Positions 1,737-28,693 of a DNA stretch of 30,548 nt are shown here, in pieces; the first letter of the stretch is position 1; each line of letters opens with the position of its first letter. A program made the translations under genes and the position numbers. Under the pieces are notes generated by a model, which saw only the letters and a program-made list of their open reading frames with translations, did not search any database and had not been told where the DNA came from. Source of the stretch: a virus; IMG/VR virus record IMGVR_UViG_3300010151_003197, positions 1 to 30,548 of that record; one strand, given 5' to 3'.

Positions 1737-1740
1737 ACTG

Positions 1741-8900: not shown

Positions 8901-10201
8901 ATAGTAGGATGGATAGTGAGCCAGATGGGGCGAGGGATATTCTTTTCGAGGGTGACCTTATACCGGGAACACGAGCAGCTCAGGCTTTAAGTATGTTCAA
9001 TAAGTACGGGATTGCTATAGCTGCCCCTACTTATCAGGGTGCGGGTTGGTTCTGGGGTGTCACTTCAGCAAAGAAGGAAGTAAAACAAAAAGCACTAGAT
9101 GAGTATAAAATGTTATATGATGCAGGTCTTATTAATGGAGATTACCACGAAGCCTTAAGAACATCTCACGGTCACTTGCCGCATAATATTGAAGAATGGA
9201 CAGTTGAGGATATAGGAGATATATTGGAGTCGGATTATGAGTACATGCTAAACAATACATTGGATGGAGTCCGTAGATTATATAATTCTCCTGAGGGTAG
9301 GAATGCAATTAATGTTATGAAAACGTTAATGGGTGGAAGAGCTGATCTTAAAACCATACTACATGGAAGACGGCTTCTTACCCCAGATCATCTGGGAGGT
9401 GAAAGAGTGATACATGTAGGCAACAATGTCGATCATAAAGTTCCTTATGCGGATGGGCTGAGGGATGCTTTTGAAAGGAATAAACATCTATCATCATTTA
9501 ATAATATGGATACTCCATGGTCTTTAATTCCTAACAAGGTAGATGCTAAGGAAAGAGCTAGAAGGCACGGCGAACTTACTACTGTTATGGAAGTATTAGA
9601 CTATGCAACCCCCGAAGATAGGAAGACTGAAGTAGAAGGAACAATGCGGCTTCTTCAGGGTTCAGATATCATGAGAGACTTAAAACAATCTGGGGTTACT
9701 CCTACTGCTATGAAGAACATTATGGCACAAATTATGAGTGATGTAGTAGTCCTCTCTAAAGAAGATCCAGAAACTTTTGAGGCTATGAGGAAGATGGATA
9801 GAGGTCGCTTATTGATCAACGCAATTCATAGGTTAACTAAGTCAGGAGAATATCCCAAGTTAACGGAAGTACGAGGGTTCCAGTTTAAAACACCAGCAGG
9901 TGCGATGATGTTTACACCTAGTGATAGACTAAAAAAGTATGGTTTGATAGATGTTGTCTATGTGGCTGAACCGCAGTATGTAGAAGTTACCAGTAATAGA
10001 CCAGCTACAGATGCGAGAGTTTTATTTAAGGTAGTAACAAGAAGTACAGGAGGAGAAGGAAGAGATATAGGATTAACTATAGGACACCTGCCTCTTGCGT
10101 GGACTCAGAGGGTAAGGGAGCCTAAACCTGTTAACCCAAAAGAGGATTGGACTGCATTGCAACACGCAGCCAGTCCTAACCTCAAGGGAATGTTTAAGTG
10201 A
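5921..10201 (+). CDS. Large internal virion protein, 1426 aa
   Basis: The start overlaps the previous stop (TGATG) with AGAGGAGC about 9 nt upstream. I cannot assign a domain with confidence. The chain is acidic and mostly helical, with hydrophobic patches such as PALASALTNMS-like stretches near residues 320-360 but no clear transmembrane segment. Near its N-terminus it has a perfect 14-residue tandem duplication (NPWAQPTNIDRDTY twice). By position (after a gp14-like gene, before a giant gene) and size it is the best candidate for the T7 gp15/gp16 role, proteins that are ejected and extend the tail into the cell. The lytic transglycosylase motif of T7 gp16 was not found. Ends 54 nt before the giant gene. 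Confidence 0.8.
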   Translation: MSISNLDYFLDNYNSLSDPESLSSRAGKSVQEAFLAAMTSFNPHGGPHDPQLMFQGDNELIEGLNPWAQPTNIDRDTYNPWAQPTNIDRDTYEAEVFKSNLFRATQATSRETLLGNINEHNNYSAKATPFDQDKLVESPLEGMSEFYNSIASFYTKQAPEFALDIGGQIPSHSLFIGGNYLDVNEGGELINIDHKMFGPPEDMVDMSFEAGESLHFLSSLEDTFFPMTAWKILEVDDLIPLNRLNPDEVRTEVEKLLKMSLPREHTIVTDELFDEILWGTEYGNDTLLKQVYKDPGILDKLGGAFDKLIRGFTEDIPNALGEFFTRAPGAIGEGLQRATMEGLPAMASALTNMSTALEEGVEETTGSKVTLADKATGINRMAYLIAKVSQDFGDWWDQSAIGKIVNKVASVPRKLDEGFERFNREHASRSGHPIQGSAIITHLSDRPVVDFTITPESVEFSMSEGISSYFGAAQDWWQDLLDSTEGAQELFDIFNEGRSNAKEGLEFIFQNGIIPSAVMAMGDQVIEMMNTGDQEDSITTSFRKAVTSLSNVSTLFSGIQYPWLSPMSYASTSVQDASSELYGSDLVGERVAGLNDAANKGATLDIVGSGRHWRFEENMRRFMNHSLKNQNFKTYADAKTFMYDVISNPDKHSITEQIAYLTIWNEGFDGLKGFLDSGTKDNATQTHEGLVKDHFIAMMSGQQIFAGKAGTSPFDFIWDLGNNAQNLKIYQTPSGQVMWDQMRNWMQGLYEDEYRSLTNLPDSAEIPPWRVLPSEPHTAGQGYQYLFDDLEKDTVQQTATIMTLAKLDAMGGFVDDKGNPVRNAILDRIGSQVKAGLNAIDITNIEEKVRNDRGDELLPAFTALTTMYKLLDRRGTTEGYEQRLSLLSNSLGFTRQSLNVMEVATDYLQNTQPTFNPWAIALRGDVDKIEHMADMLRDAESGTRNVFVGLSSILHGEVDLPEISPRNVLAMNDMMAPDYAFIGLDGPEQAEEYHSRMDSEPDGARDILFEGDLIPGTRAAQALSMFNKYGIAIAAPTYQGAGWFWGVTSAKKEVKQKALDEYKMLYDAGLINGDYHEALRTSHGHLPHNIEEWTVEDIGDILESDYEYMLNNTLDGVRRLYNSPEGRNAINVMKTLMGGRADLKTILHGRRLLTPDHLGGERVIHVGNNVDHKVPYADGLRDAFERNKHLSSFNNMDTPWSLIPNKVDAKERARRHGELTTVMEVLDYATPEDRKTEVEGTMRLLQGSDIMRDLKQSGVTPTAMKNIMAQIMSDVVVLSKEDPETFEAMRKMDRGRLLINAIHRLTKSGEYPKLTEVRGFQFKTPAGAMMFTPSDRLKKYGLIDVVYVAEPQYVEVTSNRPATDARVLFKVVTRSTGGEGRDIGLTIGHLPLAWTQRVREPKPVNPKEDWTALQHAASPNLKGMFK
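6113..6196 (+). repeat. Perfect 42-nt tandem duplication
   Basis: Positions 6113-6154 and 6155-6196 are identical, adding 14 residues in frame. Each copy contains a short perfect inverted repeat, GTGGGC-ACA-GCCCAC (6118-6132 and 6160-6174), which could promote slippage. Confidence 0.97.
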
Positions 10202-10255: not shown

Positions 10256-13200
10256 ATGGCAGTTGATTTTTCAAATACCCAGTTCGATTATACCCCAGAT
10301 CTTTTAGATATTGCGCAGTCAACAGCAGAAGAACGCGCAAGACTAATGGAGACATGGGCGGGATATGATTGGGGAACAGAACATGTTCGTAGTCTTGATG
10401 CTGGGTATTTAACCAATAAAGGAATAGAGAATAAAGCCAAGGATCGTTTTACTGGTTTTCTTAATATTGATAGAGCAATGAGTGAGCAGATGTCTAGAGA
10501 CTATACCGGTGGTATGTTCTCTGATAATATAGCTAATAAGCAAGACATCGGTAACGATCTTTCTTATCTCCTCCAGTTTGATGGTGGTGGGATGCTTGAT
10601 GTGGGATCTGCTGCTCGTAGTAGAATTGAGGAAGCTGGGAACTTCACTAGATGGAATGCCGCCGCACCCTTTGTTTCTGGTGGTAGTGCTTCATCTATAC
10701 CGGTTATGAACTCTTTTGCTGATGGTGTTGAAGATCTTTTAAATACCAAGTATGATGCACCTTGGGATACTAGTAAGGCATTGAAAGAGTTTAAGGAAAA
10801 GGATTTTGATAACTATCAATTCTTTTCTGATAGATTTGGTGGAGAAGCAGCACTAGCTGATATTGTAAAAGAAGCTAGGAATCCTTATGACTTCTTCCAC
10901 AAGATATCAAACACATCACGACAAATGTCTATTACTAAGTCATATGAGGATTGGCATAAGAAATCTACCAATCTTGACGAGTGGGGGATGTTTGTTAAGA
11001 ATCTTACTATCAACGGTATTATAAACGATCCGGACCTCATCGCAAGCATGGCTATATCCTTAGGTCTAACCTTAACCGGTATTGGTGCTACTGCTGGTGC
11101 TGCTTTGACCGCCGCTGTACTTACTGCTAAGACAGCTAAGCAGGCTTTGAGAATGAAAAGAATGATGGCTGCACTTCGTAGAATGGAAATGAGCCGATCT
11201 ATTACGGGCAAGGCTGGTCTTAGTGAACACATGCTCCAAGCTGGTAGATTCTTTAGAGGGTCAGTTAACTGGTTACCAGAACGCATTGGTCCCCACCTTC
11301 TTGCTAAAGGATTAAAGAAAGTTGGGGCACCTGATTGGCGAAAGCAACCTTGGATAATTAGATTTCCCGGTAATAGAGTTGCTGATATGGCAGAAGGCTT
11401 AATCACCGGCTCTCTTGCGGAAATTGGGAACCAGTATAGAAAACAAAACATGGGACTACAAGACAGCTTTGATTGGGGTAGGGTAGGAGCTGAAGGTGTA
11501 CTTGAAGCTTTACTCTCACCTATTATTAACCCTGTTGTTGGTACAGGTATGGGATTAGCTGGTACAACTGTTGCTTTGCCTGCTAAGGCGTGGTATAACA
11601 TTAAGGGAAAAGAAACTAATGGGTGGATCAATAATACCGTTAAGTTCTGGGGCAAGATTGCCGATCCTGATTATATTAAAAACACATTAGACATTACTAG
11701 GAAGCGTGGAAACCTCAATAGAACTATAAACAGAGTTCTAAACCAGTCTCCTATTGATGGCCTCTCGTCCGCTTCACAAGTTAGTTTAGATCTTGATAGG
11801 TCAACTCTCTTAGATAGTGAAGGCGGACACAGTGGGGTAGCTGTTGATCGCCTTAGTCTCGGCCTCTCTTCTGTTAAACATTTGTCTGGTCTCAGCGATA
11901 CAGACTTCTATAGCTTGATGCAGGAATCTGTCAATGAGGTACTGGATATTCATGGGGAGCATTCTTTATCCCCGTCCCAGTTTATGGAAAGTACACTTTC
12001 ATTACTTGAAAGTAACTATGCTACAAAGATGAAGAGTCCTCTAGGCAGTAACGTTAAGAATGTACTTAACAAAATGCGGGGGTGGAATAAACATATTGAT
12101 GATATGCATATTGCTGCTGCCGAAGAGTCTGCTAGAACTGGAACAAATATTACAGCAGCTCAATATGTAGCAAATGCTAAGAGAGATAAGAAGTGGAGTC
12201 GTTTGATTCCACCGGATATCTTAAAAGCTGCTGAAGCATCTCAGAAGATCACCGATGAAAAAGGAATTGAAGTCAAGTGGGAAGACGCTAGCGAAAGACA
12301 GAAGTTTGACGCTGCTCTTCAACACGAATATGACGTTATGACCAAACGAAATGAAAAGGGTGAAAGTAGTAGAAAGGTAGTAGAAGAAGCTCGTCAAGAA
12401 ATTGAGGCTGCTGGTGGGAATACTGGAGAGGCTCTTGGGGACAATGTATCTACCGATGAGAATCTTGCAGCAGTTATTGATAAGCAAGAAGAACTAAGGC
12501 GTCTAGAAGAGCAGTTCAATAAGGAACAGCAAGAAACACAGGACGAGCAAACCGAAACTGTTGTAGAACTAAAAGAAGTCTTAGGCCAGATAACCCAGAT
12601 CAGGCGAACGAAAGGACCGGATGCTGTGTCTGCTAAGCTGCTAGCGGAGAAGAACAGACTCGGGAATGCTCGTAAGATGAAGAGAGAGAAGATCAAAGAT
12701 TATAAGAAAGCAAGGCAGCGGTTTAAGGATTTAATTGAGAAACTAGATATAGAGATCGAGTCTTTTAAAACCACCTTAATACACGACCAAGCTCTTGCCG
12801 CTTTAGCAGATGATTTGATTGCCGTTCGTAAAAGTGTTATTGATTCCTATAATGGTGTACAAGAAGCAGGAGGCGAACTAGCTGATATTCTTGGAAGTTC
12901 AAGGATGATAGGTGTAATCCACGCATTCAAAGCTAATCCCTTCCTTAAAATAGATGAGGAAACCGGGAAACCAGACCACAGTAAAGAGGCTGCGTTTGAT
13001 AAAACAATCGAGTTGAGACAAGCTCAGGAGTGGGAAGCAGGTAATGCTGGTCTAGAGGTATTGCTTGAGACTGTGCTTGAAATACAAAACCACCCAATAC
13101 TTGGAAGTATTATTAATCCAAACACAATAGCTGCGATTATAGCTGAAATTAAAAAGATCCAAGATGGTGATCCAACCCAGAAAATACAAAAGACATTCTT

Positions 13201-16200
13201 TACGGGTCTTGTAAAACAGTTTGATAAGCTGGTTGCTCAAGTAGAGAAAGGTGTTAAGAATACTGAGATCTATGAAACAAATACTGCAAACGTAAAGAAG
13301 TATGAAACTCAACACAGAAACTACAAGAGGGCACTTGCTAAACTTTCTGAGGAGAAGGCTAGGCAATCTGCGGTTGTTTCATTCAATTCGCTAGTAACTC
13401 ATAGAGCTGTCATTGATGCTGGGACGCATGCGACCTACCATCTTGAAATTATTATCAAGGGTGTAGAAACACACCTAAATAATTTAGAAGCTAAGAAGGA
13501 AACTCATATACAGTTAAAGGAATTCCTTAGTATGCTTCCTGATATTTCTAAATATAAACAGGATAGACAGGCAGAGATCAATGCCATGGATCCAGCAGAG
13601 AGAGCTAAAAAGTATAATACTCATATAACACTAGGTAAAGCAAAGTCTGTTCTAGGAATAGAAAAGCAGAAGATCGAAAAGTATCTTAAGAATAATCAAT
13701 TAGGAACTTTGAGAGGGTGGGTTGCTCCAGCAACTATGGCTCAAGCTATTCGAAAGAATATAGGAGAGCTATTAGATACCGATTTAGATAACCTACCACT
13801 TACCAACTGGGATAACCTCCTTAACAATAGTAATCCCGGTGAGGCTTTACAGAAGGTAAAGCGTAGTATTGATAAAGATGCTGAAGCTTGGAGTGAGTGG
13901 GCTGTCCGTCTTAAAGAACTAGGAAGAACATTGGCAGTCGATACCGATGGAACAATCCATGCGGCACGTTTGTATGCTGCTATGCCAGATCACTTCTGGA
14001 AGCTAGGACTGGCACCCTTTGTATTATTCGAGCACGCTCTATCAGATGCGGGCCTTGCTATGGAAATAGGTGAACGTCATACCAATGCTGCTGCACTGCG
14101 ATACAATCTTGAGACAGTATTAGATATTGTAGACCAACATAGAGGTAAAGTCTATAGAGCTTTAGAAGGTTGGAAGGCTGAAACATTAGATCGTGTTATT
14201 GCAGGAATAGATGAGAGTGTTAGGAATGATGCTAAGCCAGACTCTATCTCTAACTTAGAATTAGCTTATGAATTTCTTAGGGGATTAGAAGAGGCTTCTC
14301 GTGACTGGAATAAACAAATGCATACCGAGGTGGGATATGTCCTTCGAGTTGATGAGGAAACTGGCTTCTACAACGAGGGTGATGTAACTCGTGATCGCTC
14401 TGCATATGAACTAGAAGCACAGAAGGCGATGAAGGAAAGGCTTAATCAACACTTGTTCTATAATGAAGAGCCGGGTAGAGAATCAAGAAAGGCTGTGAGA
14501 GAACATCGAGCAAGAAGAATCCATGAGAAGCTTGGTCTTGATTATGTAGCAGCAGAGCCAATCAATGTGGATAAGATCTATCGACACATTATGAACAATC
14601 TCGATCAGCTGGCAGACGAAACAGATTCTGGAGTAGTTACCGTAGCTTCCTTTGGCAATGGTGAGATTGACTGGACACCTGCTACACTTGCAGGTAGAGC
14701 TATTGTAGATTACTTTGCATTCGACAAGATCACAATCCAAGCAGATAAGGCTGTAGCAGAGGATAGTGGTCTCCTCGGTACAGAAGATGATGGAACAGTA
14801 GGTGATAATCCGGAGCATGTTACAGCCCCCGGACGGCTTAACCATGCTGCACCATATGGATCTTGGGATCTTAAGAGACTTACCATGCGTTGGCAAACTG
14901 ACCAACGAATGAAAGAAGTACTCAGCAATATCGAATGGGATAAAGACAACAATAGACCTAAAGTAAACTGGTCCCCGAAGCAGCGAGAAGCTGCCCGTAA
15001 ATGGAGAGAGCAGTTCTTAAAAGAAGGAACGCCAGATCCCTCAGAAGAAGCAACAAGAGTTATGCTATTCCCAAGATGGGTAGGTGGTAAGTTAGAGCAA
15101 GGTCTCCTCAGTAGAGACAAGGCTATTGACTTGGCAATGCACTTTATGATGGATCTTCCAAACCTCGCCAAGATGTTTGTCCAAGACAGTCTAACTGCTG
15201 CCCGAGGTGCTCAGGTAAGATTCAATAGACAATACGCAGACAAACTAAACATTCCATTCATGAGTCCGGGTAGTGAAGTCTTAGTACCCTTTGGCTATGC
15301 TGGTGATATTATCGCCCAAGCCTTTGCCTCTGAGGCTATGGCTGAGTCAGCTGTAGCAATAATAGAACGAACAGCACGAGATACTACTGAGTGGATGACT
15401 AGTAAGTTTGGTCTTACAGTTGACCAGTTAAATGAAATTAGAATCAAAGGTGAAATAACTGTGGATGGTAAGACTACTACCGCAGCTAAGATTAACAAAG
15501 AACTCTTTGATAGAACTAACTACTATGATAGACTGAACAGTGGTATCCACGAAGGGCATCTTAATGCTTTAGCCGCTGCTAAGACTGATGGTAAAGCAAC
15601 ATGGAAAAAAATAAAGGGTACTCCACTCGGTAATACTAAGATTACAATGCTTAATGAAGACGGGACTGAGTACAATACTACTTTGTATGAGTCCCTTACT
15701 AAGCATGGCCTTATACCTACTATTCTTAATTCTAAAGCATCTCCTATTTCTGAGGCAGACTTCTATATCAAAGGAGCTGTAGCCACAGCAGAGGCTATAG
15801 CAGCTAATCCAAATGCTGATGTTGCTCAACGTATCGGTAAGATGAGGGGTGCGTTTGAATTAATGACTCAATACGGAATCGAAGACGGTAGAATGTGGGA
15901 TGATTTACTGGAAGAAAGAGCTGAGCCTATTAATAAAATAACAGGTAAAAAAGTCTCTGAGGAACAGTGGGCTAAGGATGAACCTATTCTCGCTGCTCTT
16001 AGAGCTGTCTTTAAAGTTCCGGTTATGAGAAGAATGTACAAGGGTGGCCCTAAAAACTATAGAAAGGAATTTATCACAGATACTACTGGTAAGGGAGCTC
16101 AGGCTTTAAGAAAACTTCAAACACCAATGGGTATAGAAATTGAAAAAGATAATATTGTTGCCTTAGGTGAGTTGCTTTATAATAGACAAGGGTTTAATAA

Positions 16201-19200
16201 TCAGGTATTGCTTGATCAAGTTATTGCTACTGATGCAACCATGTCAAATCTAATGACGGAATTTGTAGGCATTGACCGAACAAGCGAATTCCAAGCTGAA
16301 GGTATGATAGACTTAGTTAATAAGTACGAACGTCAACAGCAAGTTGCTCGTGAGATCAAACAAGATAAGCCGGGTGTAGAGAGAAAGCTCGCTGATATTG
16401 TTATTACAGATAAAGATGGAGAAGCCACTACTACAGAGTTTGTTGCTCAAGAACCAGCAGCTAAGGAAGAAATAAAAGGTTCCGACAGAACTGTTGATCA
16501 AAGTGTGTACAACTTATCTGACTTAGAAAAAACCATTGAGGATCGCCTTAAGACTATTGCTACTTATGAAAATAAGTCTCTTGAAGAAGTTAAGAAGACA
16601 TATCACAAAAAGCTTGAGAAGGCTAAGAAGTTAATCAAAGAGTGGAATGAAGATGGTAATCTAGATATGAACGACCAGCGGTGGAACGAGCTAGATAAGA
16701 TCTTCTTGCCAGATAGCGACCTCAACCACAAAGAGCTTGCTTACTTCCGTGGTATTAATATGATGACAGCCTCTCACTTTAAGATTAATTTGAAACGAGC
16801 TGAAGCAGTGGCTGAGGTCTTTGGTATTAAAGACTTTAGTGCTGAAGAATTGTCTGGTCTCCAGAACGTCTTCCTCTACGGAAGGATTGGTCCTACCGCA
16901 GATCATCACCGTGGTCTTGCTGTTGGTGGACACATTCCTAACCATACTGCCACATCATTTAGCCGAGTCGCTACACTACCCAGCCCAGTAGGTAAAGGTA
17001 AAAATAAAGCAGAGTACGATAGTTTCTTGCACTTCATGGAGCAGAAGAGAGACCTTATAGAAGGAAACCCTGTAGAATTCTTTGCTGCCTTGGAAGAATA
17101 CTTAAGTACTAAAGATAATGTAGCCAGCCTAGGAATGTTAGATGGCTATGATAATCCTTATCAGAACATGAGCAGAGAAGAAGCAAAGCAGCATCTGTCC
17201 GATCTAATGGATATAAATGAAATGCTCTGGTACTCCCAGTTTGATACTCTGCCCAAGGAAGTCTTCCCTCAATATACAGCTGAAGCTGATAAAAAGCAAA
17301 TGCTTAAAGATATAATGGTAGCTTGGCATGATGCTTCTAAAGAAAGACATCGAACCTTCGCTGATCAGAAGGCTCATGAAGAGATGCTTGCTGACGGGAA
17401 TCACGATACAATGCTAGAGTTCATCGGTAAGAACTTTGGGTTTATCTCTGAAGCAATGGCTAGAAAACATGAGGGAGGATTAAGCAGATTTAACTTAAGA
17501 GAATTTGATAATGCTCTTGATGACGAAGGAAGTATGTTGCCTCTTAGAACAGCAGAACAACAAGGCTTCATGTTTAATCGTCCTCTCCACAAGAAGGTTT
17601 CTTTCTTTAATAAGGGTGTACATCGGATTCACCGCCGTATGATTAAGGATAAGATCGAGAAGAGAATTGGATACCTCGATAACTTTAGACGAGAGAACGC
17701 TACTGAGGATAACCCAATCCTAGGTGGTATCAGAAACGAGCACGAAGCATTTGGATACCATGCTCCTTGGAAACAAGAGACACTGCCTTCAGCAGAAGCT
17801 ACTGCCTCAGATTTCTGGGGTATCTACAGAGATGATCCTAACATGGCGAGAGGTTGGAGAGCTGCGGAGATCCATCAGATTGCTTATAACTATGCTAGGA
17901 ATCATGGACACATGGAACTTCTAGAAGAGAACCCAACTCTTATTCCATACTTCTTTATTGTAGCAGAGGTACAGAAACTACAGAGAGAAGCTATCCTGTT
18001 CTCTCGTGAGGGATGGCGACCTAGGAACATCACAGAAGAAACAGCGAAAGAGAATCCTGACCGCAAACGTGGATGGTACGTCATATCTAGAAACAAGTGG
18101 CTGGCAGAACTTAGTAACCTTACGAGAATATCTCGAAACGTGAGGCATAAAGTTCGGGATAGGTTAACTATCTTTAAAGACGCAAACCAATTAGCTGTGG
18201 CTGGGAAGATTGATGAGGCGATGGCATCTCTTGAAGCTTTAACTAAGATCTATAATCCAGAGACAGGATCTGGTGTTCTATTGATGCCGACAGATATCCA
18301 TAAAGAGCTTACAGTATATGGAGAAATGGGAGCCGCTGCCAAAGAGAACTTAGCTATCAGTGTGAATGGTGAGATCGATGGGACAATAGAATTTTCGGAT
18401 CTCGTTAGAGAATCTGGGATATACCATTCCACAGACTTTATGCGGTTTGTCTTGGGTGAGGTCTACATAGAAACAGTATCGAAATACCTAAAGAACTGGA
18501 ACAGTGGTAACACAGATCTAGATGATGGGTATAAGTTGATGGCTAACAACCCCAACCTTTGGGAACTTGGGATTCTTCCAGCAGATAAGGTTCGTATAAT
18601 GGAAAAAGCCTTAGATGAGATTGTAACTACAGAACAATGGGAAATTGATTTAACACCAGAGAAGATATTATCTCAAGATGAAGATGGTAAGATGCTCCAC
18701 AAGCTTAATACTCTTTTAGGTAATGAAGTAGAAGTAACCTCAGTTGTTGGCGGTAAAAAAGTAACCATGGTTCAACGTAACGCTTTAGCACGAGCACTTG
18801 GTGGTATTCTTGTTCGTACTCCTTCTGAAATTAAAGGTAATCTTAAGATCGCTCTGACGAAGCAATCCGCACTAATGTTGTTTGCTACTATACAAAATAG
18901 TCAAACTCATGTTGATCTTGAGAATGCTTCGAGAACTAATAAGGCTATTAGAACTAAGTGGGATGAGACTACCGGCAAGATGGTTTATGCTGAGCCTCAG
19001 TCTCGAAGAATGAAGAGAGCTCTCGGCTTTAGTATGCAGCCTCAGATTGATAGAGCTATCTTAGATAGTGAAGCATTGATGCTGGTTATCTCAGAAGCTG
19101 AGAATAGAATGCCAGCTGGAAAGCATAAGAGATATCTGGTAAAGGATAAGAAAGAAGTTGCAGGTCAGCCTATGACGCTCCTTGACTTGCACTCCTATGC

Positions 19201-22200
19201 TATGGGAGTCTCTGAGAATGGTGCTTTAGGCTTTGGGTCTGCATGGAAAGAAGCACACTTCTCTCCAATCCTACAGGTTATCCATAGGTTTGATACAGAA
19301 CACCTAAACGATTACCAGACAGATTTAATTACAAAACTAAAGAATCTAGTAGCAGATGCGAGGAAGACTGACGAGGACAGTTATGCAGCAATGGCTAAGG
19401 TTATTGCTCTTAGTTCTAGATTAGTCTATGGACAGAATAGAAAGTATATGTCCTTCGGAGATCACAACTGGCAGCAGTTCTTAGATCCTGATATCTATGG
19501 GATTAATATCGAGGGTCAGTCTATTGATATAGGTGTTGAAGCGGCGAAGAAAAAGATCTCTGCTGATCAACTGAGTCAGCTTGGGTACGAAGCAACTCTG
19601 TTATGGTCTGAGATCAATGGGCATATGTCTGAGCAGAGTTATGTAAGAAACAACCATATGTACTGGGATGCACGATCCTTTGCGTGGGAGTATATTAATG
19701 TAGTTGAAGATGAGATGATAGATACTACCACGGAGGATGCTTCTGCTTCTGAAGCTCCTAATATACATACGGTCATTGATCGTATCCGTGGAAAGCAGGA
19801 AGATTATAAGAGGAGTCCGGGTAAGGTATCTGCGGTGACAAGTTCTATTAGAGAAGATTCGCCTTACGTAATTACAAAACTCGAAAGGCAGCTTGCTGAA
19901 GAAACTGATGAGGGTAAAAAACTAAACCTCGAACAGAGAATCGCAACACTGAAGGCAGAGAGAAAAGCTAATAAAGAAAATCCTTTAATTCAAAATGCAT
20001 TAGAGATCGGAAATAGTATTGATGATGTAGTAAGAGTCTTCTTCTCTCAAGACGAAAGACCAACATGGGATGAGTTTAAGACATCTGACGATAAGCATAT
20101 AATTCAAACTGAAGAAGAGTTTAATAACTTTATGGATCAGCTTGATGACCTGAAGAAGAAGTTTGAGAAATCAAACGAAGAAGTTATTTCTGAGAAGTTG
20201 CTGTTGATGGACGAGGAGATGGGTATTCGGGGCGAGTTTGATATTATGACCCGTAATCGTAAGACGGGCGAAATAGCTATCTATGATGTGAAGACAAAGA
20301 GAGGCGACAGTGAGGTCACTACTGAAAACAAAGACTACTGGACAAAGCAGCTTTCTCTCTATAGTATGCTTCTCTTCAATTCGTTTGGTGTAAAAGCAAC
20401 ACGCCTCGGGGTAATCCCAATCCGTGTAGACTATAGTTCTACCGAAAGTGATATCACTACTCCTCATGCTAAGGTTGATGAAATTATCACAGTAACGGAA
20501 CAAGAGGGGTTTACTATTACTCTAAGAGATGGTAGTGAAACCCAAGCAACTTTCCGAGGAGATAAGTCTGTAAGTGGAGATCGAGCAGCTAGTGTTGAGG
20601 CTGGTTGGGACATGAAGGCTACTGATCCTCAAGCAGCCTTTATATCTTGGCTTAAGAGTAAGGGTTTATGGGATCTCACTAGGATAAAAGATAAGGCTGG
20701 AGACTCTCAGATTGATAATATTAGAAGGCTTAGAGAACAAAGGGGTGAAGACTCTAGCGACGAATCAGTCTTACAGGTACTTGCTACGCAGGCAATAGAG
20801 ACAGCCCTAAGCGATCAATTGAATATTCCAGACTCACGCATAGAACTAGAAACATTAGGTGAGATTAATCCTATGGAAGTTGAGCACAACATAGTCTCGC
20901 TGAAGAATCGAAAGAAGATTCGTGGAGAGAACTACCATCGAAAGCATGAGCGAATGCAGGAGATGGCTAGAGATACTGGCTTTGCTCCTATGTCTCAACT
21001 CAGCGAGAACATTCAAGATATGGTAGACGCTGGCAATCTTGATGAGAGACAGGCCAGACTCATGAGAAAAGCTTTAGTGAATCTCTACTTATTCAATCCT
21101 GCAACTCTAATGAATATAGATCTTAAGTTTATGAAAGAACTACGTGGTGGCTCTATCGAGACTGCTCGTAGTGGTAGAAGAACTATATCTATCGGTGGTC
21201 AGGCATTAAGGGCTGGAGACAAGCTTAATCCAGTACTCGTATTGGCACACGAGTTTAGTCATCAGGGTGCTATGAATTACATTATGACTGATAGAGCAGC
21301 CTATAAAAGATTCGAAGCCTTGATGCACCAGAAGGGTGAGTCTTTAATTCGAAAGCTTACAATTGCTTGGCACGGTGGTATTGAAACAACTGAGACTACA
21401 GCTGAAATTGAATACTACATGGAAAACGTAGATGAGTTTATGGCTGCGTTAGGTTCGTATTTCATTATGTCTGACTTCGATACACTAATGGATACCGATT
21501 TTACTTCTGAAGAACACGAAGTTCTTAAGAGTTCTAGGAATTGGCTTAGCAGAATCTTCTCTTATATGCGAAGAATCTTTGAACAGATTGGATCTATCTG
21601 GAGATCAGAACTACAGAATGACGAAATCAATGCCATGATGAATAGACTGTTTGGCTATGACTTGGCTAACAATGCTCATATCCTGCCACCAAAACAAGCA
21701 GTACAAGCTGATTTTAAGTTAAATCCTAAAGCTCACGAGCGTCATAATACTGTACAACCAGAGGATGCTTTTAAATATCCTGATAAAACCTTCGAGGCTA
21801 TGGTCGAAGAGTACGAGGGCTTTGTAGAAAAGGGTGTGGATAACTTAACAGAAGAAGAAGTACAACGGCACAATAAGCTACACCAGATTATTCAACCAGA
21901 GATTGATCAGGCTATGGTCTTAGAAGGAATCCTTCCCGAGAACCAGACTCTCATGGAGACAGGATTAACTAGATACCAATACTTCTCAGCTAAACGAAAA
22001 CTACTGAAAACATATGGTAGAGAGATTGAGAAGATTGGACCTAAGGGGAAAAAGAAAACAGTCTTGGATATAAAAGCCATGAGGCAAGGAATACGTACTG
22101 GAGCACTGGATCTGAACGTTATAGAACAGCAGGCTGCTATGCAATATCTTATTGAGAAGTTTAAGGATAGTACAGGACAGGGTAGAGGATTTGGTAATCA

Positions 22201-25200
22201 GGTTTCCAGAAAGAGTGCTTCTTGGTTTAACAAAATTCTCTCTAAGGTTTGGGGAAGCGGTCCTCATAATACAGCAAAGAGATTCCTTATTGGTGGACTG
22301 GTGGGTCCGTCCGGAGCAAACGCTACATACAATGCTATGCATATTATTCCTGTATGGTTTACAGCTCTCATGGATGATCAAGTAGTTTCTACCATGTCTA
22401 GCTGGACAAGCCTACAAGGAACAGCGTCCCTTAGTCGTAATATAGAAAAACTCCGAGTTCACCAAAACAGTATTACTGCAAACTCAAAAGACATTGACAA
22501 GATCTTTGGTGGTATCTGGAGTAAGGTTCGTGGTAAGATTAATAGAAGCAAAGGTGAAGCTATGAAGAATCTTCACTTGGCTATTTTAAGAGCAGCAGAG
22601 TTTGACGAGGTAAACCTTCTAGAAGAAATTAAGGGACCATCTAAAGAAGCATTTGAAGCTTTAAGTGAGAAGGATCAAAAGATTGTTCTTGAGAAGATGG
22701 AGAAGATTGCGGCTGATATGAGAGATTTTATGACGCTTTTAATTGAACGTCGGACAGAGATTGGAGACTGGGGACAGGCTGCAACTAATATTATTGGATG
22801 GAAGTTTAGTGAATCTACAGCAGAAGTTATGGCTGATGGTCCTTCCTTAAGAGATGGCTTAGCAGACATGTTCAGAAATATGATGGAAGACAGTGATTAT
22901 ATCGATCCAATTACTATGTTCGCCTTAGAGTTTATTCCAGACTTCGGTAATGCTGAAGCCATGCATGCTGATCTAGCAAAACTAAATCCTGCCTTTAGAA
23001 AAACCCTGCTGAGGTTTATTGCTCATGTGTCCGATGGCGATAATGTGCAGCTGAGATGGCAAGGACTAACACCACCCAAGTCTAAACTTAATAATGCTAA
23101 GGCTGCCGAAGATCGGGCTTTAGACTTTGAGCATAATTTAATGGCTCGTTTAGAACGTAACGATGCTGTCGCTGTAAGAGCAGCCGAAGAAGGTATCCAT
23201 GAGTTCATGTTGCAGATACAAAGAGGAAACATTACTTGGGCAGACTTACAAAAGGCTGGTGTTGATATTACTGCAATGCGTCAATCTCATAATGATCTTA
23301 TTACTGGTGTAAATACTAAGAGCTATGCACCAAGACTTATGAAACTTTACAAACCCGGTAAGTCTGAACGACATGCTAAAGCAATAGGGTGGCTCCCACC
23401 AGAAGGTCGAAGAGCACAGTTTACATTCGAACAGTTTAATAACATGCAGAATCCTATTGATGCTCATGTGCATAACTTAATAAATAGATCCTCGTTACAA
23501 ATGTACTTACCAAACGATGCTTGGTTTGTTCCTAATATGACATTAGCTGCGAGAAGGTATAATGTTATTGCTGAGAACGTGGTGGCACAGCCTGTTACTT
23601 TGATCAATGATTATATGCGTGGTACAGCTGATGAAACCACAGAGATCATGATGATGATTGATAACTATGATATCTATGGAACTATTGGAGATGCACTCAA
23701 TCTCTTTGCGGAAACCCATCAAGAAGCTAGTTGGAAAAATATGGATGGATCAGATGTTGATCTTGAAACCGTGGATAGTATGACATCTTCCATTACTACT
23801 CTACAAGAAAAGTACAGGTATATACGTGGAGTAAGACAGACGGATCATGTTGATGATGCTTGGAAAGACTTCTTTGTAGAAATGGCTCCCGGCTTGACCA
23901 AGATTGCCTTCGGTGGTAACTTGGCTATGGCTACGCTTGCAGTTGAGTATGCAATGAATACTTTAACATCCGTTCTTGGTCCTCAGGGGTGGAGGGGGTT
24001 CTTTAAATCTTTAACGGCATTAGTTCCTGCTGCAATCGGTACTAAAGAGTATCAGGAAGTAGCTCGGGATCTAGTAGATCTTGTGGGTGTGATGACTCAA
24101 GCTCATGTGCCTGAGTATGATCGTCCGCTACTTAATGCTAAGACAGGTAGTAAGACACTTCGTGGAATCAGTGCTGGTGTCAATGGGTGGGGCAATCAGA
24201 TGATGCGTCCTTCACAGTGGATCATGGAATCTATAGCTGTAGCTAGAGCACAGATATTCCGTAAGTCTGTATTCCATCTCCTGCAATCAGAGAAGCTTGA
24301 TAAGCTAGTAGCTGTATTAAACTCAGGAGATAAAGAATATCAACTGACTCGTACGATTAAACGAGAGGGTGAGGTAAACTTCCAGCTAGATGAAGAAGGA
24401 CAGCTTATGGAAGGTAAGTTTAAGCAGTCAGATATTATTGTACCTGATCCGGATGCCTTAGAGAAAATCATAAAGGATGTTGGGATCAACCCTAGGAAGT
24501 ATGGACGAACTATCTTTTACATGCTTAGAGCAGGCTTCTTAGATTTTGAGAATTATCAGGATCTCGTTGGAGTATTAGATATTATTAATACCAAGAAGGA
24601 CAAAGGAACCTATAGTCCTATGAGGATGTACAACGAACTAACTAAGACAGAATCCGCAGGTAATAGAGAAACATATCATACCCGACTTGATGTTATTGGT
24701 GGACTCAAGATTATGGAGAAGGCGTATATCAATGAAATCTTAGTCTCTCCAAACCCATTTGACATTAATACAGATGATGCTAGAGCTGAACGATTGTTTG
24801 AAATCTATCGTCGATATAGCATGCTCTTCAATAGTCAACTCGTTATGAGAAACTCGAACCAGATGGGACTAGCTGCGATTGCTGGAAGAATCACAGCAAT
24901 GTGTGCTCTAGATATGATGTATATGATGCTACTTAGATTAGCAAATGGTGATGACCTAGATGATCTCTTGGATGAGGTTGATGAAAGTCCTTGGACATTC
25001 TTCTTAACCTACGGAGCCAGACTTCCTATATTTGGTAGATACTTCAATATGGTTGGTGAATTCTCAGTAGCGATGCTTGAGGATAATCCTACTCTGAGAA
25101 CTCCCGGCGCGTTCATCTCATTGGCTGGTGCTGTAGCTACCCTCAAACAACTGAGAGAAATGTTTACTAAACTCTACTCAGGAGAGATGACTACTACAGA

Positions 25201-25657
25201 TGTAATTAATGCTACGAGAAATATGCCCTTCTTGGGGGATGCTATTATTCGTCTTACAGCCCACTCCTTTGGCTCCTCTCCATCCAGAGGTGGAAGAGGT
25301 AGAGGTGGTAGAGGAGGTATGGGTGGAGTAATCTCGAATACTGCCATGAAGATCGATTATACCATTGATGATTATATGAGGGCACTGATTGAGGAGATAG
25401 GAATTAGACACCCTCAGTGGAAGCAGCAATTAATGGCATCCCAGAAACTACAGGGATTCGGCAGTCCTATGTCTCCCGACGATGCCTACAATGCCCACAG
25501 AGGCCCAGAGAGCCCCGTACAGCCCGAGGAAGCTCAACAGGTACCTCAGCCTACCCCGGAGCCTGTAGTGTCTGAGACAGCCCCTCAGGACGTTATAGAG
25601 CAAATAGGAAAACAGGCCACATCTTTGAGCCTGCCAGAGAGCGAGCAACTCACATAG
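10256..25657 (+). CDS. Giant (5133 aa) virion-associated protein with predicted nuclease and metalloprotease domains
   Basis: A single uninterrupted frame; CAGGAG lies 7 nt before the ATG. Estimated mass is about 570-580 kDa. Layout: Ala/Gly hydrophobic segment at residues ~261-291; long charged, coiled-coil-like helices at ~735-860 and ~1000-1120; a RecB/Cas4-type PD-(D/E)XK set at ~3260-3370 (GNSIDDVV; R-GEFD with Asp3329; YDVKTK with Asp3344 and Lys3346; then QLSLYSMLL, the Q-x3-Y motif); HEFSH at 3665-3669, with a candidate third zinc ligand in VDEFMAAL (Glu3727). A hydrophobic stretch at ~4882-4970, an Arg-Gly-Gly-rich patch at 5011-5024 and a Pro/Glu/Gln tail follow. Phage 'polyvalent' proteins combine such domains and enter the cell with the DNA; that role here is inferred from domains and from position after gp14-like genes. 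Most of the length is unrecognised. Confidence 0.93.
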   Translation: MAVDFSNTQFDYTPDLLDIAQSTAEERARLMETWAGYDWGTEHVRSLDAGYLTNKGIENKAKDRFTGFLNIDRAMSEQMSRDYTGGMFSDNIANKQDIGNDLSYLLQFDGGGMLDVGSAARSRIEEAGNFTRWNAAAPFVSGGSASSIPVMNSFADGVEDLLNTKYDAPWDTSKALKEFKEKDFDNYQFFSDRFGGEAALADIVKEARNPYDFFHKISNTSRQMSITKSYEDWHKKSTNLDEWGMFVKNLTINGIINDPDLIASMAISLGLTLTGIGATAGAALTAAVLTAKTAKQALRMKRMMAALRRMEMSRSITGKAGLSEHMLQAGRFFRGSVNWLPERIGPHLLAKGLKKVGAPDWRKQPWIIRFPGNRVADMAEGLITGSLAEIGNQYRKQNMGLQDSFDWGRVGAEGVLEALLSPIINPVVGTGMGLAGTTVALPAKAWYNIKGKETNGWINNTVKFWGKIADPDYIKNTLDITRKRGNLNRTINRVLNQSPIDGLSSASQVSLDLDRSTLLDSEGGHSGVAVDRLSLGLSSVKHLSGLSDTDFYSLMQESVNEVLDIHGEHSLSPSQFMESTLSLLESNYATKMKSPLGSNVKNVLNKMRGWNKHIDDMHIAAAEESARTGTNITAAQYVANAKRDKKWSRLIPPDILKAAEASQKITDEKGIEVKWEDASERQKFDAALQHEYDVMTKRNEKGESSRKVVEEARQEIEAAGGNTGEALGDNVSTDENLAAVIDKQEELRRLEEQFNKEQQETQDEQTETVVELKEVLGQITQIRRTKGPDAVSAKLLAEKNRLGNARKMKREKIKDYKKARQRFKDLIEKLDIEIESFKTTLIHDQALAALADDLIAVRKSVIDSYNGVQEAGGELADILGSSRMIGVIHAFKANPFLKIDEETGKPDHSKEAAFDKTIELRQAQEWEAGNAGLEVLLETVLEIQNHPILGSIINPNTIAAIIAEIKKIQDGDPTQKIQKTFFTGLVKQFDKLVAQVEKGVKNTEIYETNTANVKKYETQHRNYKRALAKLSEEKARQSAVVSFNSLVTHRAVIDAGTHATYHLEIIIKGVETHLNNLEAKKETHIQLKEFLSMLPDISKYKQDRQAEINAMDPAERAKKYNTHITLGKAKSVLGIEKQKIEKYLKNNQLGTLRGWVAPATMAQAIRKNIGELLDTDLDNLPLTNWDNLLNNSNPGEALQKVKRSIDKDAEAWSEWAVRLKELGRTLAVDTDGTIHAARLYAAMPDHFWKLGLAPFVLFEHALSDAGLAMEIGERHTNAAALRYNLETVLDIVDQHRGKVYRALEGWKAETLDRVIAGIDESVRNDAKPDSISNLELAYEFLRGLEEASRDWNKQMHTEVGYVLRVDEETGFYNEGDVTRDRSAYELEAQKAMKERLNQHLFYNEEPGRESRKAVREHRARRIHEKLGLDYVAAEPINVDKIYRHIMNNLDQLADETDSGVVTVASFGNGEIDWTPATLAGRAIVDYFAFDKITIQADKAVAEDSGLLGTEDDGTVGDNPEHVTAPGRLNHAAPYGSWDLKRLTMRWQTDQRMKEVLSNIEWDKDNNRPKVNWSPKQREAARKWREQFLKEGTPDPSEEATRVMLFPRWVGGKLEQGLLSRDKAIDLAMHFMMDLPNLAKMFVQDSLTAARGAQVRFNRQYADKLNIPFMSPGSEVLVPFGYAGDIIAQAFASEAMAESAVAIIERTARDTTEWMTSKFGLTVDQLNEIRIKGEITVDGKTTTAAKINKELFDRTNYYDRLNSGIHEGHLNALAAAKTDGKATWKKIKGTPLGNTKITMLNEDGTEYNTTLYESLTKHGLIPTILNSKASPISEADFYIKGAVATAEAIAANPNADVAQRIGKMRGAFELMTQYGIEDGRMWDDLLEERAEPINKITGKKVSEEQWAKDEPILAALRAVFKVPVMRRMYKGGPKNYRKEFITDTTGKGAQALRKLQTPMGIEIEKDNIVALGELLYNRQGFNNQVLLDQVIATDATMSNLMTEFVGIDRTSEFQAEGMIDLVNKYERQQQVAREIKQDKPGVERKLADIVITDKDGEATTTEFVAQEPAAKEEIKGSDRTVDQSVYNLSDLEKTIEDRLKTIATYENKSLEEVKKTYHKKLEKAKKLIKEWNEDGNLDMNDQRWNELDKIFLPDSDLNHKELAYFRGINMMTASHFKINLKRAEAVAEVFGIKDFSAEELSGLQNVFLYGRIGPTADHHRGLAVGGHIPNHTATSFSRVATLPSPVGKGKNKAEYDSFLHFMEQKRDLIEGNPVEFFAALEEYLSTKDNVASLGMLDGYDNPYQNMSREEAKQHLSDLMDINEMLWYSQFDTLPKEVFPQYTAEADKKQMLKDIMVAWHDASKERHRTFADQKAHEEMLADGNHDTMLEFIGKNFGFISEAMARKHEGGLSRFNLREFDNALDDEGSMLPLRTAEQQGFMFNRPLHKKVSFFNKGVHRIHRRMIKDKIEKRIGYLDNFRRENATEDNPILGGIRNEHEAFGYHAPWKQETLPSAEATASDFWGIYRDDPNMARGWRAAEIHQIAYNYARNHGHMELLEENPTLIPYFFIVAEVQKLQREAILFSREGWRPRNITEETAKENPDRKRGWYVISRNKWLAELSNLTRISRNVRHKVRDRLTIFKDANQLAVAGKIDEAMASLEALTKIYNPETGSGVLLMPTDIHKELTVYGEMGAAAKENLAISVNGEIDGTIEFSDLVRESGIYHSTDFMRFVLGEVYIETVSKYLKNWNSGNTDLDDGYKLMANNPNLWELGILPADKVRIMEKALDEIVTTEQWEIDLTPEKILSQDEDGKMLHKLNTLLGNEVEVTSVVGGKKVTMVQRNALARALGGILVRTPSEIKGNLKIALTKQSALMLFATIQNSQTHVDLENASRTNKAIRTKWDETTGKMVYAEPQSRRMKRALGFSMQPQIDRAILDSEALMLVISEAENRMPAGKHKRYLVKDKKEVAGQPMTLLDLHSYAMGVSENGALGFGSAWKEAHFSPILQVIHRFDTEHLNDYQTDLITKLKNLVADARKTDEDSYAAMAKVIALSSRLVYGQNRKYMSFGDHNWQQFLDPDIYGINIEGQSIDIGVEAAKKKISADQLSQLGYEATLLWSEINGHMSEQSYVRNNHMYWDARSFAWEYINVVEDEMIDTTTEDASASEAPNIHTVIDRIRGKQEDYKRSPGKVSAVTSSIREDSPYVITKLERQLAEETDEGKKLNLEQRIATLKAERKANKENPLIQNALEIGNSIDDVVRVFFSQDERPTWDEFKTSDDKHIIQTEEEFNNFMDQLDDLKKKFEKSNEEVISEKLLLMDEEMGIRGEFDIMTRNRKTGEIAIYDVKTKRGDSEVTTENKDYWTKQLSLYSMLLFNSFGVKATRLGVIPIRVDYSSTESDITTPHAKVDEIITVTEQEGFTITLRDGSETQATFRGDKSVSGDRAASVEAGWDMKATDPQAAFISWLKSKGLWDLTRIKDKAGDSQIDNIRRLREQRGEDSSDESVLQVLATQAIETALSDQLNIPDSRIELETLGEINPMEVEHNIVSLKNRKKIRGENYHRKHERMQEMARDTGFAPMSQLSENIQDMVDAGNLDERQARLMRKALVNLYLFNPATLMNIDLKFMKELRGGSIETARSGRRTISIGGQALRAGDKLNPVLVLAHEFSHQGAMNYIMTDRAAYKRFEALMHQKGESLIRKLTIAWHGGIETTETTAEIEYYMENVDEFMAALGSYFIMSDFDTLMDTDFTSEEHEVLKSSRNWLSRIFSYMRRIFEQIGSIWRSELQNDEINAMMNRLFGYDLANNAHILPPKQAVQADFKLNPKAHERHNTVQPEDAFKYPDKTFEAMVEEYEGFVEKGVDNLTEEEVQRHNKLHQIIQPEIDQAMVLEGILPENQTLMETGLTRYQYFSAKRKLLKTYGREIEKIGPKGKKKTVLDIKAMRQGIRTGALDLNVIEQQAAMQYLIEKFKDSTGQGRGFGNQVSRKSASWFNKILSKVWGSGPHNTAKRFLIGGLVGPSGANATYNAMHIIPVWFTALMDDQVVSTMSSWTSLQGTASLSRNIEKLRVHQNSITANSKDIDKIFGGIWSKVRGKINRSKGEAMKNLHLAILRAAEFDEVNLLEEIKGPSKEAFEALSEKDQKIVLEKMEKIAADMRDFMTLLIERRTEIGDWGQAATNIIGWKFSESTAEVMADGPSLRDGLADMFRNMMEDSDYIDPITMFALEFIPDFGNAEAMHADLAKLNPAFRKTLLRFIAHVSDGDNVQLRWQGLTPPKSKLNNAKAAEDRALDFEHNLMARLERNDAVAVRAAEEGIHEFMLQIQRGNITWADLQKAGVDITAMRQSHNDLITGVNTKSYAPRLMKLYKPGKSERHAKAIGWLPPEGRRAQFTFEQFNNMQNPIDAHVHNLINRSSLQMYLPNDAWFVPNMTLAARRYNVIAENVVAQPVTLINDYMRGTADETTEIMMMIDNYDIYGTIGDALNLFAETHQEASWKNMDGSDVDLETVDSMTSSITTLQEKYRYIRGVRQTDHVDDAWKDFFVEMAPGLTKIAFGGNLAMATLAVEYAMNTLTSVLGPQGWRGFFKSLTALVPAAIGTKEYQEVARDLVDLVGVMTQAHVPEYDRPLLNAKTGSKTLRGISAGVNGWGNQMMRPSQWIMESIAVARAQIFRKSVFHLLQSEKLDKLVAVLNSGDKEYQLTRTIKREGEVNFQLDEEGQLMEGKFKQSDIIVPDPDALEKIIKDVGINPRKYGRTIFYMLRAGFLDFENYQDLVGVLDIINTKKDKGTYSPMRMYNELTKTESAGNRETYHTRLDVIGGLKIMEKAYINEILVSPNPFDINTDDARAERLFEIYRRYSMLFNSQLVMRNSNQMGLAAIAGRITAMCALDMMYMMLLRLANGDDLDDLLDEVDESPWTFFLTYGARLPIFGRYFNMVGEFSVAMLEDNPTLRTPGAFISLAGAVATLKQLREMFTKLYSGEMTTTDVINATRNMPFLGDAIIRLTAHSFGSSPSRGGRGRGGRGGMGGVISNTAMKIDYTIDDYMRALIEEIGIRHPQWKQQLMASQKLQGFGSPMSPDDAYNAHRGPESPVQPEEAQQVPQPTPEPVVSETAPQDVIEQIGKQATSLSLPESEQLT
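19826..20400 (+). other. PD-(D/E)XK (RecB/Cas4-type) nuclease domain within the giant protein
   Basis: In order: an N-terminal Ser/Thr-rich lead (SAVTSSI), a helix GNSIDDVVRVFF at the place where RecB-family members have G-x-x-x-H, then GEFDIM (Asp3329), IYDVKTKRG (Asp3344, Lys3346) and QLSLYSML (Gln and Tyr). These are the core motifs of the PDDEXK_1 family in the right order and spacing (15 residues between the two acidic sites). The usual motif-I His seems replaced by Asp. Activity is predicted, not shown. Domain edges are approximate. Confidence 0.8.
21100..21520 (+). other. HEFSH metalloprotease-like domain within the giant protein
   Basis: A hydrophobic strand/helix (NPVLVLAHEFSHQG) presents His3665, Glu3666 and His3669, the HExxH zinc-peptidase signature. 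About 58 residues later ENVDEFMAALGSYF offers Glu3727 as a possible third ligand. The same HExxH ... (D/E)EFxA arrangement is seen in domains of phage and conjugative-element polyvalent proteins. Substrate unknown. Edges are approximate. Confidence 0.6.
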
Positions 25658-25753
25658 GATCGACTAGGGGGTCACGAATTTGTCTGGGGCTTGGTAAGGG
25701 AACACATTGTGTGTTTCCCCCCGTAGCCCATGAAATGGGCAGAAAGGAATAGT
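25658..25753 (+). terminator. Hairpin-rich gap after the giant gene, possible end of the late operon
   Basis: Two stems are visible. The first pairs 25698-25706 with 25710-25719 (9 bp, one bulged T, loop TTG). The second is perfect: GCCCAT (25726-25731), loop GAA, ATGGGC (25735-25740). Neither is followed by a T-run, so termination is uncertain; they could be RNA processing sites. The second stem buries the ATG at 25730. Confidence 0.4.
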
Positions 25754-26641: not shown

Positions 26642-26842
26642 GGTCTATTCACTATAGACCAGTTCTTGAACTAGATTTACCCCCAGGAAGGGAAAAGAAC
26701 CTAGGAAGAATAACCGTTAGAACTGTAATCAACGGTGTGTTTGCAACTACTTAAATGTACTTGTGAGCAATTTCCTGTGAGTTTAATGTTGGTATGTCCA
26801 ACAACTGCACAGGTATGTGATGCATTATTAGGAGACTCTTCA
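26642..26842 (+). promoter_or_regulatory. Leader of the RNA polymerase gene with several dyads and a promoter-like core
   Basis: A 7-bp inverted repeat, GGTCTAT/ATAGACC (26642-26660), contains TCACTATAG (26649-26657), the core of T7-family promoters; no match to the upstream T7 element is seen. Further dyads: AGTTC/GAACT (26661-26672), ACCGTT/AACGGT (26713-26736) and TGTTGG/CCAACA (26787-26803). No clear sigma-70 promoter could be picked by eye. The dyads may be operators or leader RNA hairpins controlling polymerase synthesis. Confidence 0.4.
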
Positions 26843-28693
26843 ATGAGTGCATCAGATAAATCGGGTGTGTGTCTACCCCCTGAATGGCAATCGCTTATTC
26901 AGAAACACACACGTAGGCACCTGCTGACTCCAATCAGCGGGAAGACGAGGAGCGTCGATATCGATGCTGCGTTTCGTACGGGTGATGTCCGTACGGATAA
27001 TCCCAAGTGTACTGAGTTCTATCAGCAAGGGATTGCTATTGACGCTCTCAAAGAGCGTCCCTCGTTGTACCCGCATCGATTGGAAATTTTGCATGGAGCA
27101 GCGGAATCGGCACTGAGTATGTGGTTGGAAACCCCTAAGGGTAATCCCACGATTCAGTACCACCACCTCAGTCCTCCCACACTGGAAGGACTGTGGACTC
27201 CACGGGTCAGTCGCCGGACTGATCTTAATCCAACACCTCTCGCCTTGGAGGCCGCTCAGACGTTGAGTGAAACTCCCTTCAGGGTGAACACAGAGGTGAA
27301 CAACCTGTTTTGGCAGGTTCGCTCGCAGATCCCATTGGGTGAGACCGAGAACACAAGGTTCTCGGCTCAAGAGAGCTTCTATCCTTACCGCCTTCGGGCA
27401 ATGTCGCTTGCGACAGAGGGTAATGAGTTCTACATTGCGATGTCGATCTTTTGCTGGGCTTTGCGTATGTACGCGAAGTCCGCAGGTACGCTTCATCCGA
27501 TGTACGGCCTTCAGTGTCGTGCGATGATGGAGCTGGCGTATACGGTCCCTATTGACAACCAGAGCTGGGTGTTCTTCCGGTCTTGGTTGAAGAGGCACTT
27601 CGCGAAGAAGGCTTCTATCAAGGACTGGTGCAGTTCAATCCTGTCCGATCCGAAGGCGGCATTGCTCGCTGGAGCAACTGGACAGGGTGGGTGTGATCCC
27701 TACGAGTACCGTGCGGCTGCTGAGTACGCACGACTCGAACGGTTGCCGATGAGGCTCAGGATGTCTCGCTTCTTGATGGAGCTTGATACTGCTGGGTCTG
27801 GTCCGATGTTGATCAAGATGATCCTTGACTTGGTTCAAGAGTTGTCGGAAGTCGATGTCACACATGAGGACTGGGATCATCCTCGCACACAGCTTCTGAA
27901 TCTGATTCGGGAGCTGGGACTGCCGTTCCTTTCTAAACTGCCTAAGGCCATTCTCCTGAAAATCTTGAAGGCTATCTTCAGCCCAAAGACCTATGGAGCG
28001 GGAGCCGGTCCAGTGTTTGACGCATTGGTCGGCCAAGAGGGCCTGCGGAAGGGATTCTCTTCTTTGGAGGATCTGAACGGAATGCCCGCTGCTCTACGAA
28101 ACGCTATGACGCATGGCTGCTCAAGTTACCATCTGGTACACCCACGGGTGAAGACAGCAGCCAAGCAACTCTCAGAAGCTTTCAACAAATGCTTCCCGCA
28201 TCTGAAGGAAGCCAACAAGAGTGCGCTCAAAGAGTGGGAGAACACTCCTTGGGATCAGCGTTTCATCGGTGGGGATCTTCTGATGTCGCCTTTCCGTTTC
28301 TCTGACTCCGATGACTCGGATGTCAAAGGACATGAGGTACCATCTACTGGCAACGGTAAATGGAAGGTCCACAGTACGTATGTCAACCCTGTCACAAAGC
28401 TGGAGACTCCGGTTTCCTGCCAGACTGACTGGCCCACACTGACGACCGCTGGCACAGCATTGCTGGGCCGTCGCTTGCACAGGTGGGATGCTATCCATCG
28501 ATGTCAGACTGTCCTGAACTACAAGGACATGTCTGTACACGGCGGGAACATGTATGGAATCCATGATGCCGGTGGTGCAGCCATCGGTGATGCTCCTACA
28601 TATGTGAGGGCTGATTCTCAAGCTCTCATTGATCTGTTCCCCGACACATGCAAAAGGATCGGGTTCACTGCTGAATCCCGCATCTGCAACTGA
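26843..28693 (+). CDS. Compact, divergent T7-like single-subunit RNA polymerase
   Basis: The protein is 616 aa. The start at 26843 is chosen for AGGAGA 7 nt upstream; the frame opens earlier (26735) without a ribosome site. T7 RNAP landmarks appear in order: SETPFRVN (Asn149; T7 NTAWKIN); CWALRMY (204-210) over T7 DWRGRVY, keeping the second Arg and the Tyr; motif A DTAGSG (Asp315; T7 Asp537); motif B with Lys376 and TyrGly 384-385 at the T7 K631/Y639 spacing; VNP...TPV before motif C; and motif C GIHDAGG (His574, Asp575; T7 H811/D812). T7 RNAP has 883 residues; here the N-terminal part and the thumb region are much shorter. It presumably transcribes phage genes in the cytoplasm. The motif-B Arg is not at its usual place. 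A GC-rich hairpin follows the stop. Confidence 0.85.
   Translation: MSASDKSGVCLPPEWQSLIQKHTRRHLLTPISGKTRSVDIDAAFRTGDVRTDNPKCTEFYQQGIAIDALKERPSLYPHRLEILHGAAESALSMWLETPKGNPTIQYHHLSPPTLEGLWTPRVSRRTDLNPTPLALEAAQTLSETPFRVNTEVNNLFWQVRSQIPLGETENTRFSAQESFYPYRLRAMSLATEGNEFYIAMSIFCWALRMYAKSAGTLHPMYGLQCRAMMELAYTVPIDNQSWVFFRSWLKRHFAKKASIKDWCSSILSDPKAALLAGATGQGGCDPYEYRAAAEYARLERLPMRLRMSRFLMELDTAGSGPMLIKMILDLVQELSEVDVTHEDWDHPRTQLLNLIRELGLPFLSKLPKAILLKILKAIFSPKTYGAGAGPVFDALVGQEGLRKGFSSLEDLNGMPAALRNAMTHGCSSYHLVHPRVKTAAKQLSEAFNKCFPHLKEANKSALKEWENTPWDQRFIGGDLLMSPFRFSDSDDSDVKGHEVPSTGNGKWKVHSTYVNPVTKLETPVSCQTDWPTLTTAGTALLGRRLHRWDAIHRCQTVLNYKDMSVHGGNMYGIHDAGGAAIGDAPTYVRADSQALIDLFPDTCKRIGFTAESRICN

Follow-up and report, generated by a model that had tools for sequence, protein, structure and literature searches.

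A 5,133-residue protein with a single-subunit RNA polymerase-like core in a T7-like marine phage: a candidate N4-like virion RNA polymerase

The window analysed here, that is the whole 30,548-nucleotide stretch of the IMG/VR record IMGVR_UViG_3300010151_003197, is a 30.5-kb viral contig and represents a fragment. Half of it is occupied by one gene for a giant protein of 5,133 residues, which we consider, with somewhat better than even confidence, to be a highly diverged N4-like virion RNA polymerase that was enlarged to approximately 5,100 residues in otherwise T7-like marine phages. The polymerase-like core of this protein as well as its nuclease and zincin content had gone unseen in an earlier reading of the window (the sequence-only reading). 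The genes from the terminase to the 652-aa polymerase and the regions of the giant lie on the plus strand, and positions are those of the window unless stated otherwise.

The giant gene (10256..25657) starts with an ATG at position 10256, is preceded by the ribosome site CAGGAGTTTCTAAATG with a Shine-Dalgarno-like AGGAG, and runs to a stop codon ending at 25657 with no internal stop, so that the single intact 15.4-kb gene claimed by the sequence-only reading is borne out in its start, its stop and its uninterrupted frame. At this base composition, 5,133 open codons are expected by chance with a probability of about 10^-155. In comparison with the nearest relative, the giant exhibits 54% amino acid identity over 2,091 codons, an identity by codon position of 62/73/42%, and a dN of 0.37–0.54 versus a dS of 2.5–3.0 or saturated. 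Due to these codon-position identities and to a dN far below dS, the gene is under purifying selection, in agreement with the strong selection proposed before.

Using the terminase gene of the window, we gathered 45 related loci in viral contigs, and these relatives belong to the same marine phage group as the window phage. The first half of the giant was matched in 19 and the second half in 15 of 26 related records, and the frame stays fused, being one stop-free frame every time. Fifteen complete giants including that of the window, and then five more, resulted in a set of 20 that are 4,559–5,825 aa long, mostly 17–35% identical, and located at the same locus of phages with a T7-type terminase. 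An assembly artefact or chance as the origin of the frame is ruled out by these 20 complete frames.

The usual gene order in the relatives is terminase, three short genes, a gene of approximately 1,300–1,500 aa and then the giant. In the window, the T7-type terminase large subunit (1708..3420; PF22530, 9e-35; phrog_38, 1.5e-93) is followed by genes of 248 aa (3433..4179), 339 aa (4190..5209), 243 aa (5190..5921) and 1,426 aa (5921..10201), all of them candidate ejection partners by synteny, and the giant is situated in this late block directly 3' of them. The neighbourhood, including the 1,426-aa gene, is thus as previously described, but the designation of the 248-aa gene as gp14-like is not supported by Pfam and PHROGs; no family match was obtained for the 1,426-aa gene in the same two collections. 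The assignment to a T7-like phage holds, given the T7 type of the terminase and the protein families across the whole genome of one relative. The genomes of three relatives were taken whole, two of them with overlapping ends, and a 64-kb relative with overlapping ends encodes a T7-type portal connector, capsid, tail tube, DNA polymerase, primase-helicase and RNA polymerase. In this 64-kb relative (G007), matches to a B12-dependent ribonucleotide reductase, a sulfotransferase and DUF932 were also observed (L128–L131), and in another relative (G010) the gene preceding the giant (L133–L134, record positions 35652–43094) encodes 2,481 aa compared with the approximately 1,400 aa found elsewhere. 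The window itself further contains a right-handed beta-helix protein that is open at the contig edge and probably a tail spike (4–1524), a perfect 42-bp tandem duplication in the 1,426-aa gene (6113–6196), and three 27-bp repeats in the 243-aa gene (5551–5631).

The giant resembles the T7 internal core proteins gp14-gp15-gp16 in its genomic role and its neighbourhood in a T7-type phage, and it could be regarded as an enlarged internal core protein, namely a gp15/gp16 descendant with enzymatic insertions. Such a descent is in line with its position after other core-like genes, and a weak resemblance to the T7 gp16 family phrog_342 was seen for one C-terminal homologue (E 0.12). However, the N- and C-terminal profiles of the giant show no similarity to gp14, gp15, gp16 or the 1,201-aa protein of HTVC200P, in what is a weak test with single sequences on the T7 side; moreover, T7 gp16 comprises only 1,318 aa, and a virion polymerase is lacking in T7. 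The scaled-up T7 core protein put forward by the sequence-only reading therefore appears very unlikely.

A region with RNA-polymerase-like motifs spans aa 1440–2955 (14573..19120) of the giant. Its core (15527..16039) comprises a motif A, D1758xxxSG, followed by D1835-x-Y1837 and by a motif B, R1916xxxK1920xP1922xxxxxY1928, and the pattern D-xxx-S-G, D-x-Y and R-xxx-K-xxxxxxx-Y corresponds to motifs A and B of single-subunit RNA polymerases. Residues D1644, Y1837, R1916, K1920 and Y1928 are kept in all of 22 aligned homologues and D1758 in 21 of them. The spacing of the arginine, lysine and tyrosine is the same as in T7 (R627/K631/Y639) and N4 (R666/K670/Y678), with KxP as in N4. Among the RNA polymerase families, N4 vRNAP matched the core best in profile comparison, with E values of 0.002–0.014 in the same register in four set-ups, versus 0.26 for the reversed control; the direct comparisons to N4 span E 0.002–0.018, uncorrected for several tests, and the best of them (E 0.002) covers only about 85 columns. 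With a 74-sequence N4 alignment of loose boundaries the signal was lost, the best match (E 0.16) falling elsewhere, and it came back after trimming to the N4 columns. Partly due to this dependence on alignment trimming, our confidence in the polymerase reading is moderate.

A stronger argument than the direct N4 profile match is, at the level of sequence comparison, a transitive link via L090, a divergent giant encoded on a contig with a terminase that shares 68% identity with that of the window. A family profile constructed without L090 matches L090 at aa 1402–1850, motif B included (E 7e-19, single-target search), and L090 matches the RNA polymerase family phrog_414 across motifs A–B (E 1e-7, 38,880 families searched). 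By way of this intermediate, profile searches show the motif A–B core to be homologous to T7-type single-subunit RNA polymerases. The window giant itself gave no direct RNA polymerase family match in Pfam and PHROGs, and the giant family profile gave no RNA polymerase match among the PDB sequences. A tblastn search with both halves of the giant against 50,697 phage records retrieved the nuclease domain in crAss-like phages only and left N4-like phages unmatched.

Residue D2727 (18434..18436), present as (H)DF and kept in 21 of the 22 aligned homologues, is the candidate aspartate of motif C, and its distance from motif B amounts to about 800 aa compared with 273 in N4 and approximately 173 in T7. 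The stretch aa 2140–2262 (16673..17041; E 0.003–0.045) resembles the T7-type 'AINxxQNTxWxIN ... DxxGRxY' part, with E 0.003 against the family of 650-aa polymerases described below and E 0.03–0.045 against T7. This 'IN...DxxGR'-like segment is located 3' of motif B in the giant, whereas it precedes motif A in T7, and the match is either due to chance or reflects a rearranged polymerase. As a DxxGR motif we also considered D1644, given its spacing of 114 versus 116 in T7. The N4 signature R424/NPQxxKxxR is absent upstream of motif A, the GRxY-like segment sitting downstream. AlphaFold models of aa ~1560–2872 (15 homologues, first row L122; pLDDT 54.7) and of the C-terminal domain (pLDDT 56.4) were too poor for use, and Foldseek returned no significant match for either of these low-pLDDT models.

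Beyond the giant, the window encodes a 652-aa protein (26735..28693) that profiles and hhalign identify as a divergent single-subunit RNA polymerase (mitochondrial RNA polymerase 9e-11 and T7 RNA polymerase 1.5e-6 by profile; T7 family 5e-17 by hhalign). Its homologues occur in most relatives, several of them with a degenerate DxxGR or motif C. Of 22 related records searched, 16 contained a canonical T7-type polymerase of about 815 aa, among them all of those of 53 kb or more. Together with the giant, the ~650-aa and ~815-aa proteins apparently bring the number of single-subunit polymerases or polymerase-like proteins in such phages to three.

Outside the polymerase core, four regions of the giant are recognizable. 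An N-terminal conserved domain (aa 60–460; 10433..11635) carries an NDPD motif at 257–260, followed by a hydrophobic Gly/Ala-rich stretch at aa 261–289 that is possibly a membrane segment, and such a segment is found in many homologues. A PD-(D/E)XK nuclease domain at aa 3246–3394 (19991..20437; D3329, D3344-x-K3346, Q3365xxxY3369) contains all of the GxxD, DxK and QxxxY motifs of Cas4/RecB-type PD-(D/E)XK nucleases, shares 30% identity with a portion of crAss001 gp47 (E of about 1e-8 against the phage collection), and aligns in a minority of the giant homologues only. The HExxH zincin motif at aa 3665–3669 (21248..21262), with a conserved E3727 downstream, belongs to a region similar to the HExxH domain of the N4 vRNAP family (E 1e-4 to 5e-4, hhalign); the second histidine is missing in two of 16 homologues (L089, L093). 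A C-terminal conserved domain (aa 4390–5010; 23423..25285) is common to the giants of two further, related phages, G042 and G043 (E 3e-13 and 6e-9). These giants (L237/L238 and L239/L240), 3,804 and 4,219 aa long and situated at the same locus, also share the N-terminal domain weakly, and neither polymerase nor HExxH is detectable in them. Since they keep the C-terminus without a detectable polymerase, the payload of the giant may vary. A possible, albeit tentative, extension of this finding is a swappable ejection platform, in which conserved N- and C-terminal virion modules would carry a payload differing between sister phages (polymerase, nuclease and protease in the window giant, none of the three detectable in G042 and G043), with reordered polymerase subdomains and with one of three RNA polymerases being injected.

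That the N- and C-terminal domains are the most widely shared parts, the latter even in giants without a polymerase, would also fit an ejection or structural protein with a non-catalytic polymerase-like core, either a relic or a DNA-binding scaffold, the chain acting as a channel, a DNA-entry motor or a platform. Motif C and DxxGR of the giant are indeed unclear, and a third RNA polymerase is not obviously needed next to the ~815-aa T7-type and 650-aa enzymes. On the other hand, the aspartate of motif A and the arginine, lysine and tyrosine of motif B are invariant or nearly so despite an overall identity of mostly only 17–26% among the giants, as catalysis would preserve them, and we therefore regard a non-catalytic core as rather unlikely.

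Nuclease and zincin domains occur in non-structural proteins as well, which would be compatible with a late cytoplasmic protein that is not packaged, such as a host take-over factor or a polyvalent nuclease/protease. This explanation, which we judge to be quite improbable, is at odds with the late-block site by candidate core-protein genes and with the N-terminal membrane-like stretch, and furthermore with an architecture as in N4 gp50 and a domain as in crAss001 gp47, both of which are virion proteins (PMC12633501, PMC10172136). By analogy with the domain order of the former and the domain held in common with the latter, it is plausible that the giant is a virion protein, and its mode of action is probably like that of N4 gp50.

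N4 gp50 is composed of an N-terminal membrane domain with a membrane segment predicted at 224–278, the polymerase, an HExxH-containing C1 domain and a C2 domain that is large and helical, and is ejected via a channel of approximately 35 Å (PMC12633501). Similarly, the giant is a single chain of a short-tailed phage, presumably packaged, in which a possible N-terminal membrane segment, a single-subunit RNA polymerase, an HExxH domain and a large C-terminus follow one another, and it contains D-x-Y and R-xxx-KxP-xxxxx-Y; like N4, the window-type phages also carry T7-type RNA polymerase genes. In contrast to N4 gp50 with its ~3,500 aa, the giants measure 4,559–5,825 aa, that of the window being about half as large again, motifs B and C are 800 aa apart, some giants contain a nuclease domain, and the phage backbone (TerL, portal, capsid, RNA polymerase) is of the T7 type. 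No full-length or full-domain sequence similarity to N4 gp50 was detectable. Given that this full-domain similarity and the upstream R/NPQ signature were tested and found absent, we would not classify the giant as a Schitoviridae vRNAP.

Mass spectrometry detected the cargo protein gp47 of crAss001 in virions (PMC10172136). This protein shares with the giant a PD-(D/E)XK domain (Cas4/RecB type, QxxxY) within a very large protein of a short-tailed phage, whereas the rest of gp47 matches nothing in the giant. The crAss polymerase belongs to another family. A virion protein of approximately 5,000 residues with an RNA polymerase that starts infection has been described for P23-45 (PMC10770324). 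This tail-tape-fused virion RNA polymerase is likened to the giant by description, in its scale of about 5,000 residues with a polymerase; unlike the giant, it is the tape measure of a long-tailed phage, and its RNA polymerase is homologous to cellular RNA polymerases.

Directly 3' of the giant (25658–30548), the GC content rises from 0.42 to 0.52, and an increase of about 3–15 points at this site was observed in the relatives with available 3' sequence. The step is possibly a genome end or the boundary of an early module, and the rise suggests that the leading, early segment of the genome may start there. If the giant indeed is an N4-like virion RNA polymerase, it might be kept in the head as a series of loosely connected domains and, at infection, would thread unfolded through the short tail together with the ~1,400-, 340-, 240- and 250-aa products of the preceding genes. 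Its N-terminal hydrophobic segment would lodge in the membrane, and the central single-subunit polymerase would refold in the cytoplasm and transcribe the first-entering DNA. This DNA would begin with the GC-rich segment 3' of the giant, which contains the 650-aa polymerase, with the ~815-aa T7-type polymerase further on, resulting in a putative cascade from the injected giant via the 650-aa to the 815-aa polymerase. On entry, protein and DNA of the phage or the host could be substrates of the HExxH and nuclease domains.

Injected single-chain virion RNA polymerases are already known from N4-like phages, and a literature search, with subscription papers outside its scope, found such a protein nowhere described in T7-type phages. 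If true, our reading would mean that the start-up strategy of polymerase injection is not confined to one phage family, that shared domains link the ejection biology of N4, T7 and crAss phages, and that a new size mark is set for a protein threaded through a short tail.
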